A stretch of 64,000 nt of DNA, taken from the NCBI RefSeq assembly GCF_000019165.1, contig NC_010337.2, forward strand, positions 1,047,001-1,111,000, in the 5' to 3' direction. The translations under genes and the position numbers were made by a program. Under the pieces are notes generated by a model, which did no database searches, was not told the origin of the DNA, and saw only the letters and a list, made by a program, of their open reading frames with translations. Below, piece after piece: positions 7,316 through 12,994 of this stretch; positions within the stretch are counted from its first letter, which is position 1, and every line of letters starts with the position of its first letter. Source of the stretch: Heliomicrobium modesticaldum Ice1. GTDB lineage: Bacteria > Bacillota > Desulfitobacteriia > Heliobacteriales > Heliobacteriaceae.

Positions 7316-9199
7316 GTGCGCCCGGCATGGGCGTTGTCTCTAGGGTGGAAGTCCCGAACGCCGAAGGTGGCAGTAGGCGTTAGCTTAAGGCAAGGGTGTC
7401 CGCCGCGAGGCGGAATCTGAAGGAAGCCAGCGGCAAACCTCCGGCCCGAGGACCACGAACCCCAGGTGAGGCTAGCGGCAGTTGGATGAGCTTGCCGAAC
7501 AAAGCGAAGTCCTTGTCACCGAAGGCTGCCGAGAGTAAATGGGGCGGGTAGATGGAGGGAAAGGCAACGTTCTTACCCGGGGAGGCCTGCCGGGGGACCA
7601 AGTAACTTGGGAAACCACGCCGAAAGGCGTGGCTGAACCGGCAGGAGTCAGCAGAGGTCATAGTAGGCTGGCCCGACGTCCGGCCAGATGAAGGACCGAA
7701 CATGATGGAAGGGGAAGCGACGATGCGTTCGCGTGACGCGCAGAGACAGCCGAATATCCCGAAAGGGAACTGCCAACGGGAGGAAGCGGTGAATCCGCAG
7801 GGGACCGGTGGAGTGCCGAGCGCGTTACCGGCACAAGAAGCGAAGCAACCCCGCGAAGAGACGTATGACCTGATGGAGAAAGTCGTCGAACGAGGGAACA
7901 TGACGGAAGCGTATAAGCGAGTCATGGCCAACAAAGGCGCGGCCGGAATCGACGGTATGGGGCTAGAATCCCTGCGCCCGTACCTAAAAGAGGAATGGTC
8001 GCGCATTAAACAGGAATTGTTGGAGGGGACCTATCGACCGCAACCGGTCCGGCGGGTTGAAATTCCCAAACCCCAAGGCGGAACACGGAAGCTGGGCATT
8101 CCCACTGTCGTCGATCGACTGATCCAACAGGCCCTGAACCAGATCCTGATGCCGATCTTCGACCCTGACTTTTCCACGAACAGCTACGGATTTCGTCCGG
8201 GAAAGAGTGCGCACCAAGCGGTGAAGAAAGCGAAGGAATACATCGCCGACGGCTACCGATGGGTGGTTGACATGGACCTGGCCCAGTTCTTTGATCGCGT
8301 CAATCACGACATTCTCATGGCGCGCGTAGCGCGCAAGGTGAAGGACAAACGAATCTTGAAGTTGATCCGAGAATACCTCAAGGCCGGGGTCATGCTCAAC
8401 GGGATTCGTGTGAAGAGCGAGGAAGGAACACCCCAGGGAGGTCCACTCAGCCCTTTGCTGGCGAACATCATCCTGGATGATTTGGATAAGGCACTGGAAA
8501 GCCGGGGACATCGCTTCTGCCGGTACGCCGACGACTGTAACGTCTACGTCCGCAGTCGACGGGCAGGGCAACGAGTGATGGAGGGTATGGCAAAGTTTCT
8601 GGAGGGGCGGTTAAAACTGCAGGTCAACTGGGAGAAAAGCGCAGTCGACCGACCCTGGAACCGAAAGTTTCTGGGGTTTTCATTTACGTGGCATAAGGCA
8701 GCAAAGATTCGGCTCGCCCCCCAAACGGTGAAACGGGTGAAAGAGAAGATCCGCCAGTTCACTGGGCGGAACCGAAGCATTGCGATGGAGGACCGACTGG
8801 TCACCCTCAACCAATACCTGAAAGGCTGGATGGGCTACTTTCGACTCATTGACACGCCAAGCGTACTTAAAGAGTTGGATGAGTGGCTTCGCCGACGACT
8901 GCGGATGTGCCTGCTCAAGCAATGGAAGCGCCCGAAGACACGAAGACGAAACTTAGTGGCGTTGGGGATCCCGGAGGAATGGGCATGCAACATCAGCGGC
9001 TCACGAAAAGGATATTGGCGTCTGTCCTTGACCCCGCAAATGAATAAAGCCCTTGGCCTCGCCTACTGGCGGGAACAGGGCTTAGTCAGTTTAGTCGAAA
9101 CATACCAATCTCATCGTCAACCAGCATGAACCGCCGTATACCGAACGGTACGTACGGTGGTGTGAGAGGACGGGGGTTAATCACCCCCTCCTACTCGAT
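7316..9199 (+). mobile_element. Group II intron, copy 1 (class C type)
   Basis: The 1884-bp element begins GTGCGCCCGG, fitting the GUGYG start of group II introns, and ends CTACTCGAT (final AY). Domain V lies at about 9127-9165 (ACCGCCGTATACC paired with GGTACGTACGGTGGT around GAAC), and domain VI at 9166-9199, with a GGGGG/CCCCC stem and a bulged A in CCTACTC as branch-point candidate. The encoded maturase lacks an HNH nuclease and the element sits next to a terminator hairpin, both features of class C introns. The structured part 7316-7701 before the reverse transcriptase gene is ribozyme domains I-IV. A second copy follows with no base between them. Confidence 0.92.
7702..9129 (+). CDS. 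ltrA: Group II intron reverse transcriptase/maturase, copy 1
   Basis: A 475-residue intron-encoded protein that helps the intron splice and copies it into DNA. After an N-terminal tail of about 50 residues come the reverse transcriptase blocks: NKGAAGIDGM, YGFRPGKSAHQA, VVDMDLAQFFDRVNHD, GTPQGGPLSPLLANI and the catalytic RYADDCNVYV. The maturase X domain follows (LNQYLKGWMGYFRLIDT), then a short basic C terminus (RRRLRMCLLKQWKRPKTRRR). No HNH endonuclease domain is present. The first ATG (7702) and the ATG at 7726, with GGGGAAG upstream, are both possible starts. It differs from copy 2 at four residues: S for I after FRPGK, N for S in TGRNRS, V for D in RLVTL and S for A in WRLSL. Confidence 0.95.
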   Translation: MMEGEATMRSRDAQRQPNIPKGNCQREEAVNPQGTGGVPSALPAQEAKQPREETYDLMEKVVERGNMTEAYKRVMANKGAAGIDGMGLESLRPYLKEEWSRIKQELLEGTYRPQPVRRVEIPKPQGGTRKLGIPTVVDRLIQQALNQILMPIFDPDFSTNSYGFRPGKSAHQAVKKAKEYIADGYRWVVDMDLAQFFDRVNHDILMARVARKVKDKRILKLIREYLKAGVMLNGIRVKSEEGTPQGGPLSPLLANIILDDLDKALESRGHRFCRYADDCNVYVRSRRAGQRVMEGMAKFLEGRLKLQVNWEKSAVDRPWNRKFLGFSFTWHKAAKIRLAPQTVKRVKEKIRQFTGRNRSIAMEDRLVTLNQYLKGWMGYFRLIDTPSVLKELDEWLRRRLRMCLLKQWKRPKTRRRNLVALGIPEEWACNISGSRKGYWRLSLTPQMNKALGLAYWREQGLVSLVETYQSHRQPA

Positions 9200-11084
9200 G
9201 TGCGCCCGGCATGGGCGTTGTCTCTAGGGTGGAAGTCCCGAACGCCGAAGGTGGCAGTAGGCGTTAGCTTAAGGCAAGGGTGTCCGCCGCGAGGCGGAAT
9301 CTGAAGGAAGCCAGCGGCAAACCTCCGGCCCGAGGACCACGAACCCCAGGTGAGGCTAGCGGCAGTTGGATGAGCTTGCCGAACAAAGCGAAGTCCTTGT
9401 CACCGAAGGCTGCCGAGAGTAAATGGGGCGGGTAGATGGAGGGAAAGGCAACGTTCTTACCCCGGGGAGGCCTGCCGGGGGACCAAGTAACTTGGGAAAC
9501 CACGCCGAAAGGCGTGGCTGAACCGGCAGGAGTCAGCAGAGGTCATAGTAGGCTGGCCCGACGTCCGGCCAGATGAAGGACCGAACATGATGGAAGGGGA
9601 AGCGACGATGCGTTCGCGTGACGCGCAGAGACAGCCGAATATCCCGAAAGGGAACTGCCAACGGGAGGAAGCGGTGAATCCGCAGGGGACCGGTGGAGTG
9701 CCGAGCGCGTTACCGGCACAAGAAGCGAAGCAACCCCGCGAAGAGACGTATGACCTGATGGAGAAAGTCGTCGAACGAGGGAACATGACGGAAGCGTATA
9801 AGCGAGTCATGGCCAACAAAGGCGCGGCCGGAATCGACGGTATGGGGCTAGAATCCCTGCGCCCGTACCTAAAAGAGGAATGGTCGCGCATTAAACAGGA
9901 ATTGTTGGAGGGGACCTATCGACCGCAACCGGTCCGGCGGGTTGAAATTCCCAAACCCCAAGGCGGAACACGGAAGCTGGGCATTCCCACTGTCGTCGAT
10001 CGACTGATCCAACAGGCCCTGAACCAGATCCTGATGCCGATCTTCGACCCTGACTTTTCCACGAACAGCTACGGATTTCGTCCGGGAAAGATTGCGCACC
10101 AAGCGGTGAAGAAAGCGAAGGAATACATCGCCGACGGCTACCGATGGGTGGTTGACATGGACCTGGCCCAGTTCTTTGATCGCGTCAATCACGACATTCT
10201 CATGGCGCGCGTAGCGCGCAAGGTGAAGGACAAACGAATCTTGAAGTTGATCCGAGAATACCTCAAGGCCGGGGTCATGCTCAACGGGATTCGTGTGAAG
10301 AGCGAGGAAGGAACACCCCAGGGAGGTCCACTCAGCCCTTTGCTGGCGAACATCATCCTGGATGATTTGGATAAGGCACTGGAAAGCCGGGGACATCGCT
10401 TCTGCCGGTACGCCGATGACTGTAACGTCTACGTCCGCAGTCGACGGGCAGGGCAACGAGTGATGGAGGGTATGGCGAAGTTTCTGGAAGGGCGTCTAAA
10501 ACTGCAGGTCAACTGGGAGAAAAGCGCAGTCGACCGACCCTGGAACCGAAAGTTTCTGGGGTTTTCATTTACGTGGCACAAGGCAGCAAAGATTCGGCTC
10601 GCCCCCCAAACGGTGAAACGGGTGAAAGAGAAGATTCGCCAGTTCACTGGGCGGAGTCGAAGCATCGCGATGGAGGACCGACTGGACACCCTCAACCAAT
10701 ACCTGAAAGGCTGGATGGGCTACTTTCGACTCATTGATACGCCAAGCGTACTTAAAGAGCTGGATGAGTGGCTTCGCCGACGACTGCGGATGTGCTTGCT
10801 CAAGCAATGGAAGCGCCCGAAGACACGAAGACGAAACTTAGTGGCGTTGGGCATTCCGGAGGAATGGGCATGCAACATCAGCGGCTCACGAAAAGGATAT
10901 TGGCGTCTGGCCTTGACCCCGCAAATGAATAAAGCCCTTGGCCTCGCCTACTGGCGGGAACAGGGCTTAGTCAGTTTAGTCGAAACATACCAATCTCATC
11001 GTCAACCAGCATGAACCGCCGTATACCGAACGGTACGTACGGTGGTGTGAGAGGACGGGGGTTAATCACCCCCTCCTACTCGAT
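9200..11084 (+). mobile_element. Group II intron, copy 2, directly abutting copy 1
   Basis: Starts with the same GTGCGCCCGG at the base after copy 1 ends and finishes with CTACTCGAT at 11084, followed by chromosomal CTTTCTTACAC. Its 1885 bases differ from copy 1 by about twenty substitutions and one inserted C in a C/G run near 9460. The most economical history is that copy 2 arrived first beside the terminator hairpin, and copy 1 later entered the same hairpin-proximal site, which the first insertion had left intact on its 5' side. Confidence 0.92.
9587..11014 (+). CDS. ltrA: Group II intron reverse transcriptase/maturase, copy 2
   Basis: 475 residues, same architecture as copy 1: N-terminal tail, reverse transcriptase blocks with intact RYADDCNVYV, X domain and a short basic C terminus without nuclease. 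The reading frame is complete, so this copy also looks able to make protein. It carries I, S, D and A at the four positions where copy 1 has S, N, V and S. The silent and replacement changes lie mainly in the second half of the gene. Confidence 0.95.
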   Translation: MMEGEATMRSRDAQRQPNIPKGNCQREEAVNPQGTGGVPSALPAQEAKQPREETYDLMEKVVERGNMTEAYKRVMANKGAAGIDGMGLESLRPYLKEEWSRIKQELLEGTYRPQPVRRVEIPKPQGGTRKLGIPTVVDRLIQQALNQILMPIFDPDFSTNSYGFRPGKIAHQAVKKAKEYIADGYRWVVDMDLAQFFDRVNHDILMARVARKVKDKRILKLIREYLKAGVMLNGIRVKSEEGTPQGGPLSPLLANIILDDLDKALESRGHRFCRYADDCNVYVRSRRAGQRVMEGMAKFLEGRLKLQVNWEKSAVDRPWNRKFLGFSFTWHKAAKIRLAPQTVKRVKEKIRQFTGRSRSIAMEDRLDTLNQYLKGWMGYFRLIDTPSVLKELDEWLRRRLRMCLLKQWKRPKTRRRNLVALGIPEEWACNISGSRKGYWRLALTPQMNKALGLAYWREQGLVSLVETYQSHRQPA

Positions 11085-11135: not shown

Positions 11136-11233
11136 TGGCGGGAGTGGGTAGGAATCGAACCTACCGCGCCCGGGTTGGCCGCGCGCCACGTGGGTTTGAA
11201 GCCCAGGGAGGACACCAGTCCTCATTCACCCCC
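11136..11233 (-). tRNA. selC: Selenocysteine tRNA (anticodon UCA)
   Basis: A 98-base gene read leftward with the hallmarks of bacterial tRNA-Sec: a long acceptor stem starting GGGGGTGA and ending ACTCCCG with encoded CCA, a six-pair D stem (GAGGAC/GTCCTC around TGGT), anticodon loop CTTCAAA containing TCA, a long GC-rich variable arm, and T arm GTAGG-TTCGATT-CCTAC. The top pair of the anticodon stem is C-C and the eighth acceptor pair A-C, minor irregularities. It charges with serine, is converted to selenocysteine, and is delivered to UGA codons by SelB, whose gene lies at 23.5-25.5 kb. An IS element begins 18 bases upstream of the 5' end. Confidence 0.93.
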
Positions 11234-11406
11234 AAAAAACTCTATAACTAACTCAACTTTCGCAGTTGCGAATCTGTTGTTACCTGTGATAAGTTAAAAT
11301 TTTGACAAAAATAAAGCAAAGCATCCTTTCTATCAAGCCCCCTAATTGAATTTGAGCAAAGACCCCCTAGTGGGCTACAATGAGAACACATGGAGGGGTC
11401 AAGAAC

Positions 11407-11733
11407 ATGAGACGAAATCGATACCCAAAAGAACTGAAGGAACAGCTGATCCAAGAAGCCATGGAAGCGGGAAATGCAACACAAGTGGCCCGCCGACATG
11501 GGATCGATCCGAAACGGCTGTATTACTGGATTCGAGAATCACAGCACAAGGGCTTCCAAGAAGCACCGGCGGACGCAAAACAAATTGCTCCGTATGTGCC
11601 GTCCGCACAAGAATTTAAGCGATTGGAATCCGAAAACATAGCACTGAAAAAGCTACTCGGCGAAAAGACATTAGAAATCCAAATATTGCAAGATTTGATA
11701 AAAAAGAAGAACCCGAGCTATCGGAAAAATTAG
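11407..11733 (+). CDS. IS3-family transposase OrfA (helix-turn-helix)
   Basis: DNA-binding half of the IS3-type transposase, 108 residues. The helix-turn-helix is at about residues 8-45 (QEAMEAGNATQVARRHGI then RLYYWIRES), followed by a leucine-zipper-like segment FKRLESENIALKKLLGEKT. I chose the ATG at 11407, preceded by GGAGGGG; the frame is open 27 bases further upstream. The gene ends just after the slippery heptamer A AAA AAG at 11700-11706, where a -1 shift would join it to OrfB. Confidence 0.92.
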   Translation: MRRNRYPKELKEQLIQEAMEAGNATQVARRHGIDPKRLYYWIRESQHKGFQEAPADAKQIAPYVPSAQEFKRLESENIALKKLLGEKTLEIQILQDLIKKKNPSYRKN

Positions 11734-11760
11734 AAGTTGCCGATGAATGGGTAGCTCGGG
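11700..11760 (+). promoter_or_regulatory. Programmed -1 frameshift signal of the IS3-type transposase
   Basis: A AAA AAG at 11700-11706 is in the correct phase for OrfA (codons AAA, AAG). Nine-base arms CCCGAGCTA (11712-11720) and TAGCTCGGG (11752-11760) are perfectly complementary and can form a stimulatory stem starting five bases after the slip. OrfB is in the -1 frame. Heptamer plus downstream stem is the standard IS3-family arrangement for making the OrfAB fusion transposase. Confidence 0.85.
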
Positions 11761-11783
11761 AGGAAGCCAGCAATGCCTTTATC

Positions 11784-12668
11784 TTGCGTGTCATCGGCAT
11801 TCACGAAGCCACCTACTACGCTCGGCGCCAACGTCTACAGAGAGAACCGAAAGAGCGCACAAACAATGGCGGACGGCCGCAACCAGGGTATTCATGGACA
11901 CAAGACGGAAAGCGAATCAGCGATGAACAAATTAAGGAATACCTAATGGAACTCATCGCTGGCGAAGAAAGCATCTACGGATATCGAAAGCTGGGAATCT
12001 GCCTTCATAAACAGCATCAGTTGATCATCAACCATAAAAAAACCTATCGACTATGCAAAGAGTTAGACATCCTATCGCCACAACGCCAGATCAAGGCCAA
12101 ACATCCGCGCCGGATGGCGCGCAACCGAATCATTACCGCCTCCAACGAACTCTGGGAGATGGACATCAAATACGGCTACATCGCCGGTGAAGATCGCTTC
12201 TTCTATCTCATGTCGCTCATCGATGTCTATGATCGCTCTATTGTAGATTACCACATCGGGTTAAATTGTGAAGGTGCTGACGCAGCCAATACGCTGAAAC
12301 GGGCGTTGTGGAAACGAAACTGCTTTGAAAAAGAAAAGAAGCCAATTGTGCGAACCGACAATGGATCGCAGTTTATCAGCCGTGTGTTTGAGGAAACGTG
12401 CGAACAATACCAGGTTGAACACGAACGAATTCCCCCAAAGACGCCGAACAAAAACGCCCATATCGAATCGTTTCATGCAAATCTGGAACGCGAGTGCTAC
12501 ATCAAGCATACCTTTGAATCCTACCAAGACGCCTACCAAGTGGTTGGAGAATACATTGACTTTTATAACCAGAGGCGAATCCATGGCAGCCTCTACAATA
12601 TGTCCCCTGCGGAGTTTTGTCGACAGCTGGCGGATGGGAACGTACCCGCTTTTATTGTCACACTGTAG
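11784..12668 (+). CDS. IS3-family transposase OrfB (DDE integrase domain)
   Basis: Catalytic half of the transposase, 294 residues from the first ATG; made mainly as an OrfAB fusion after frameshifting. The HTH_21-like region (YGYRKLGICL) is followed by the retroviral-integrase core with DDE residues in WEMDIKYGY, VRTDNGSQF and NKNAHIESFHANLEREC. It ends with the typical YNQRRIHGSLYNMSPAEF. All catalytic residues are present and there is no internal stop, so the element looks intact. Confidence 0.93.
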   Translation: MRVIGIHEATYYARRQRLQREPKERTNNGGRPQPGYSWTQDGKRISDEQIKEYLMELIAGEESIYGYRKLGICLHKQHQLIINHKKTYRLCKELDILSPQRQIKAKHPRRMARNRIITASNELWEMDIKYGYIAGEDRFFYLMSLIDVYDRSIVDYHIGLNCEGADAANTLKRALWKRNCFEKEKKPIVRTDNGSQFISRVFEETCEQYQVEHERIPPKTPNKNAHIESFHANLERECYIKHTFESYQDAYQVVGEYIDFYNQRRIHGSLYNMSPAEFCRQLADGNVPAFIVTL

Positions 12669-12699
12669 CATAGGTGCCGCACTATAGACCAGGCAGGCT

Positions 12700-12840
12700 A
12701 AAGCGCAAAGCCCGACGTCAACCGCCTAATTGACGTTCCCTATACAGGCCGACGTCTGTCAAGGGACGCCGAAGGCGTGGCGAAGCCCTTGCCCTTGATA
12801 GACGTTGGTCTGTATAGGACCCTGTAAGAGGCGGTGACGG
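12700..12840 (+). ncRNA. Large structured hairpin/pseudoknot region in the IS3-type element tail
   Basis: 27-base arms at 12739-12765 and 12792-12818 pair along their full length; the only three non-Watson-Crick positions are all G-U in plus-strand RNA. The 26-base loop holds a small ACGCC-GAA-GGCGT stem. Just upstream GACGTCAA (12714-12721) pairs with TTGACGTT (12730-12737), and the loop of that hairpin (ACCGCCT, 12721-12727) can pair with AGGCGGT (12829-12835), a possible pseudoknot closing the whole fold. It lies between the transposase stop and the right end of the element. No known RNA family is recognised. Confidence 0.55.
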
Positions 12841-12994
12841 CAGCCCCCCGAATTAGCGCAATCGTCAATTTTGTGAGACTCTACGAAAAACAGCGAATAA
12901 GGGGTCTACGCTCTAGAATTAGGGGGTTGAACCGCTTTTCTCTGGCATAATGAGGTCACCACACCAAAATTATGAGAAAGGAAAGGTGCTTAGC

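Follow-up and report, generated by a model that had tools for sequence, protein, structure and literature searches.

A folded, promoter-like module in the non-coding tails of unrelated Bacillota transposons as a candidate single-stranded-DNA promoter

Why does an IS3-family insertion sequence of Heliomicrobium modesticaldum carry, behind its transposase gene, a long non-coding tail that folds into an almost perfect hairpin? The element lies at 11329..12935 (+) of the window, by which we mean the whole 64,000-nucleotide stretch analysed here; its left end, TCTATCAAGCCCCCTAATT, and right end, AATTAGGGGGTTGAACCG, were inferred by comparing the five near-identical copies in the 3,075,407-base host genome and are precise to a few bases. 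The transposase is encoded at 11380..12668 (+) by orfA (11380-11733), which contains HTH_Tnp_1, and orfB (11784-12668), which contains an rve transposase domain, and the IS3 assignment lies above the NCBIfam cut-off. Between the orfB stop at about 12668 and the right end at about 12935 lie 230-260 nt of non-coding DNA, and the extra tail on which the first-pass annotation had remarked is thus real. Antisense to orfB there is a 136-aa open frame (12261-12671, -), whose ATG lies shortly downstream of the expected path of a leftward transcript made on the folded strand of the tail; it is probably nothing other than an antisense frame of the transposase. Elsewhere in the window, two near-identical group II introns stand in direct tandem (7399-9129 and 9283-11014, +, about 1885 bp apart), both with Rfam domains D1-D4 and a 475-aa reverse transcriptase, and a tRNA-Sec gene (11136-11233, -) adjoins them.

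The central helix of the tail, P2, is formed by arms at 12739..12765 and 12792..12818 (+), which pair over 27 nt with 24 Watson-Crick and three G-T pairs, as had been described. The 5' arm ends in the invariant TGTCAAGGG and the 3' arm begins with the invariant CCCTTGA. The core between them (12766..12791, +), delimited by the fold and the conserved pattern, consists of the hairpin ACGCC-GAA-GGCGT (12766-12778), the hairpin GGC-GAA-GCC (12779-12787) and the linker CTTG, and the loop, in which one further hairpin had been noted, thus holds two. The pseudoknot also proposed is unsupported; the flanks form a nested outer helix, P1, between 12716..12727 (+, CGTC-A-ACCGCCT) and 12829..12839 (+, AGGCGGTGACG), set apart from P2 by an open internal loop of 11 nt on the 5' side (12728..12738, +, from the DNA fold) and 10 nt on the 3' side (12819..12828, +). 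Folded as RNA, the segment 12680-12850 reaches -84.4 kcal/mol (z -7.9, with none of 200 shuffles as good), and the DNA fold of the module has a z of -8.4. No second hairpin of this type was found elsewhere in the 64 kb, on either strand.

The module is not confined to this element. The same genome contains two more copies (L006 and L007), whose 84% identity is limited to the module; both follow the AAA-ATPase gene in a transposon whose rve transposase is unrelated (labels read from sequence). Searches with blastn and a covariance model located the module in seven of the nine Heliobacteriaceae genomes, both as solo copies and in additional groups of IS3. In an alignment of 12 Heliobacteriaceae sequences, 94.7% of the pair cells hold, 24 cells are doubly changed, and the covariation score of 0.169 exceeds those of all 500 shuffles and of all slides, so that the covariation check proposed for the hairpin comes out in its favour. 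A wider search pattern built on the invariant core, TCAAGGG-(two small hairpins)-CCCTTGCCCTTGA, gave matches in 12 of 398 Bacillota genomes and a control pattern in none; a looser version of the core pattern was run in three classes. Almost every match with the asymmetric core follows a transposase gene, or what is left of one, at a distance of 20-300 nt. By Pfam and NCBIfam the carrier transposases belong to IS3, ISNCY (NF033594), IS256, IS110 and ISLre2, with one further carrier IS6-like below the cut-off, and the module has the same orientation as the transposase in IS3, IS256 and ISNCY and is antisense to it in IS110. It is present, too, in MITE-like elements made up solely of 22-bp GAGCCAC...CCGG end repeats and the module, without an ORF, which to judge by their ends may be IS21-like; two of these (L159 and L165) have 354 bp in common between unrelated flanks, and L170, L147, L154, L160 and L167 are their relatives. 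This presence in unrelated transposons rules out an IS3-specific sequence, and with it the earlier view of the module as a property of the IS3 element. Moreover, about 16 of some 29 IS3 relatives of the window orfB (50-77% identity) lack the module, the right end following almost directly after the stop or after a short unstructured tail, which implies that the module is dispensable and that transposition does not need it. The first-pass annotation had named relatives without the segment as grounds for abandoning its reading; they exist, and they show the module to be optional, not unreal.

The geometry of the module was compared over 27 elements, which are probably related modules and not independent inventions; owing to the shared core, counts over them are not fully independent, yet P1 and the outer part of P2 have completely diverged. 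The 5' strand of P1 ends about 32 nt ahead of TCAAGGG and its 3' strand begins about 30 nt past TTGA; the helix has sequences as diverse as ACCGCCT, CTGAACACCTC, CTCCGGCCC, CATCTCACCCTT, CCCTTAACCCC, TCCCGCTGGC and others, and its same-register pairing gives a summed score of 281.3 against 160.9±7.9 in 1000 partner permutations (maximum 185), so that P1 covaries in register across unrelated elements. On the strand with CCCTTGAC in the 3' arm, a -10-like hexamer lies 16-17 nt past TTGACN, in relatives GATAAT, TACAAT, TAGAAT, TAAAAT, TATCAT, TAAACT and the like. Hexamers of the form NANNNT stand at spacers 16 and 17 in 9/27 and 14/27 elements, as against 1 and 2 on the mirror strand, which bears the same TTGAC (Wilcoxon p 3e-6); one element, L240, entered this test in uncorrected orientation, an effect that works against the test. 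TTGAC was part of the search patterns, which accounts for some of the conservation of the -35; neither the -10 nor P1 was in them.

P2 pairing ends with the first base of the -10, at k ~18, and P1 starts (gap3 30.9±1.8) about 7 nt past its last base, at about the expected +1. Facing bases in the open loop are non-complementary no more often than expected by chance, with no active avoidance found, and pairing of the 5' side is at chance level across 21 elements. With the -35 in duplex, the stretch from -10 to -1 open and duplex again from +1, the folded strand resembles an open promoter complex, and the duplex-like promoter fold expected of a single-strand promoter is seen both in this common geometry and in the DNA folds of the window module and of L212, a consensus copy from IS256 (z -6.4). 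Proper -35/-10 spacing is found for the class. In the window, the -35-like hexamer TTGATA (12795..12800, +; TTGACA/G/T in relatives) and the -10-like hexamer GACCCT (12818..12823, +, spacer 17, 2/6 match) are both weak, the predicted start site falls at about 12830, and a consensus promoter scan of this copy found none; because of its weak -10, the activity of the window copy is the least certain. Position 2 A and position 6 T of the -10 are nevertheless retained across the Heliobacteriaceae elements.

L018 (G004:C9:104216-104350) is an internal-deletion copy of the window IS3 in which the start of orfA is fused directly to the first module bases, the module and right end being retained, and L140 (G006:C7:8-141 and 196-345) is a tandem pair of modules with about 55 nt between them at a contig end. 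L230 and L234 (both in G227) have their upstream sequence in common and diverge 3 nt after the -10, one retaining P1 and the other having lost it; the divergence point may be an element boundary inside the module. A viral or plasmid origin was rejected: a search of 2.9 million viral contigs gave six matches, each in coding or otherwise unrelated DNA and with neither P1 nor a -10, and plasmid records gave none at blastn sensitivity. An exact 17-mer scan of genome contigs was likewise set aside, its matches being mostly chance and coding; among them only repeats in Amycolatopsis and Kribbella had the architecture. These are multi-copy intergenic repeats of about 200 bp (L037, L043, L049, L051, L102 and L117 in Amycolatopsis sacchari; L053, L060, L075, L080, L081, L083 and L124 in Kribbella), which combine GTCAAGAG...CTCTTGAC hairpins with an outer helix and, in a similar register, -10-like hexamers. 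No adjoining transposase was seen, and the repeats may represent folded promoters of this kind in Actinomycetota.

Computationally, a conserved and covarying fold, a -35/-10 register on one strand and a P1 helix that begins at the predicted start recur across several IS families and MITE-like elements. We favour the view, whose chances we judge to be about even, that the module serves as a promoter or primer site of folded single-stranded DNA in non-coding transposon tails, akin to Frpo and sso. The same hexamers could instead form an ordinary outward promoter in double-stranded DNA, driving the transposase across the IR-IR junction of a transposon circle or activating neighbouring genes, with the hairpin incidental or regulatory. 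Canonical copies do have textbook hexamers at 16-17 nt, the module is oriented like the transposase in IS3, IS256 and ISNCY, and IS are known to have outward and junction promoters (PMC7780238). Such a promoter, however, has no need of P1, which covaries all the same; in IS110 it would point against the transposase, in the MITE-like copies it would have no gene to drive, and no consensus promoter was found in the window copy itself. A second topology also argues against it. Four IS3 relatives of the window orfB (L255, L256, L267 and L269), related to one another, have a different fold with TTGAC on the 5' arm, and in linear DNA the distance from TTGAC to TACAAT, TAAAAT or TATAAT is 20 nt. Four nucleotides of the 5' arm (GGGG or GTTA, at a conserved bulge position) are absent from the 3' arm, which brings the spacer of the folded duplex to 16 bp; the -10 lies opposite non-complementary bases, duplex begins 6-7 nt past it, and a linear promoter scan of L256 found none inside the module. 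We regard an ordinary outward promoter as unlikely.

A second alternative, close to that of the first-pass annotation, is that the transposase mRNA has a structured 3' UTR, which acts as a stabiliser, a regulator or a 6S-like decoy for RNA polymerase. It would account for the strong RNA fold and for the 6S-like shape of a duplex with an open central loop, and the excess of G-U over A-C from which selection for RNA had been argued is indeed pronounced in the Heliobacteriaceae set, where G-T and A-C mismatches on the folded strand stand at 22:1. Over the 27 diverse elements, however, the ratio is 21:18, so that the argument is valid locally but not class-wide, and as a general proof of RNA it is ruled out; in minimum-energy folds the G-U counts are 63 for the + strand and 76 for the - strand. 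The -35/-10 hexamers are DNA recognition signals, the IS110 copies are antisense to the transposase, and the suggested comparison with Rfam covariance models, 6S, HEARO and OLE included, gave no match to the module even at E up to 5. What stands is a single-strand structure under selection, with compensatory changes, but its reading as RNA specifically is unsupported, given that the class lacks a G-U bias and conserves, besides the fold, a DNA signal (sigma-A -35/-10 on one strand). We consider a 3' UTR RNA less likely still than an outward promoter. We judge it quite improbable that a DNA cruciform or hairpin serves for protein binding or for insertion/recombination, some other protein using the promoter-like bases: the near-perfect inverted repeat with its invariant core TGTCAAGGG/CCCTTGACA would suit it, but the one-sided -10 at 16-17 nt and the start of P1 at +1 would be left unexplained. 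A transcription terminator or insulator, suggested by a stable hairpin 70-130 nt past the stop codon, seems far-fetched, as it does not predict P1, -35 or -10, a T tract is absent, and a scan of the window copy and others gave no terminator-like site.

If the module is a single-stranded-DNA promoter, it would act when the + strand becomes single and P2 forms the duplex that bears the -35. The segment from -10 to -1 would be left open in the internal loop of about 11x10 nt, with P1 duplex resuming exactly from +1, and the folded strand would imitate an open RNA polymerase complex. RNA polymerase could then copy the + strand itself into a short RNA running in the direction of the transposase gene; this RNA would serve DNA polymerase as a primer, whose extension would convert the displaced, circularised strand of a copy-out-paste-in figure-eight to double-stranded DNA. 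IS3, IS21, IS256, IS110 and ISLre2 are on a published list of copy-out-paste-in families, in which the figure-eight is processed by host replication from a liberated 3'OH to yield a circle (PMC9333248; for ISCth4, PMC7780238); that list includes the carriers IS3, IS256, IS110 and ISLre2 but neither ISNCY nor the IS6-like carrier. Where the right end is the donor, we infer that the circularised strand would be both the coding and the folding strand in IS3, IS256 and ISNCY, although this choice of strand is not forced, as ISCth4 can use either end as donor (PMC7780238). Transposition may be the source of the single strand; conjugation or DNA uptake could possibly provide it as well. As a tentative extension, with somewhat less than an even chance, many copy-out-paste-in IS of Bacillota may carry an interchangeable, transposase-independent single-strand origin that primes the second strand of displaced or incoming ssDNA, some variants being promoters only when folded. 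If so, the range of single-stranded-DNA promoters would reach beyond plasmids to the most common mobile elements of bacteria, and long non-coding IS tails would have an explanation; in the literature covered, mostly outside subscription journals, we found no description of ssDNA promoters or conserved hairpins in IS.

Among known systems, IS junction promoters (IS911-type IR-IR) likewise place a promoter at the right end of copy-out-paste-in IS, but the promoter of the module is complete, 70-100 nt inside the IS and within a hairpin, and is not assembled across the junction. 6S RNA presents the same succession of duplex, open loop and duplex and is also an open-promoter mimic; it is, however, a cellular RNA, whereas the conserved letters of the module are DNA promoter hexamers, and the Rfam 6S models do not match it. 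The primary paper on Frpo is reportedly that of Masai and Arai from 1997. For both Frpo of F and the sso of rolling-circle plasmids, the promoter that host RNA polymerase uses is a folded single strand (PMC4595007, PMC5703833, PMC11541004). In ssoA and ssoU of rolling-circle plasmids and sso1 of ICEBs1, host RNA polymerase recognises the folded strand and makes the primer of the complementary strand (PMC4595007, PMC5703833); sso, whose conserved elements are RSB and CS-6, are like the module about 150 nt long, and orientation matters. They serve plasmid replication, whereas the module would serve transposition, and it is likened to them by fold, not by sequence. The Frpo/ssi of conjugative plasmids resemble it in that a folded single strand mimics a duplex promoter, with the -35 in the stem and the -10 near the stem end (PMC11541004). 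The module differs from them in its fixed core TCAAGGG...CCCTTGA and in the outer P1 helix from +1, and plasmid records searched at blastn sensitivity gave no match to it; Frpo/ssi lie in plasmid leading regions, the module in the tails of IS and MITE-like elements.
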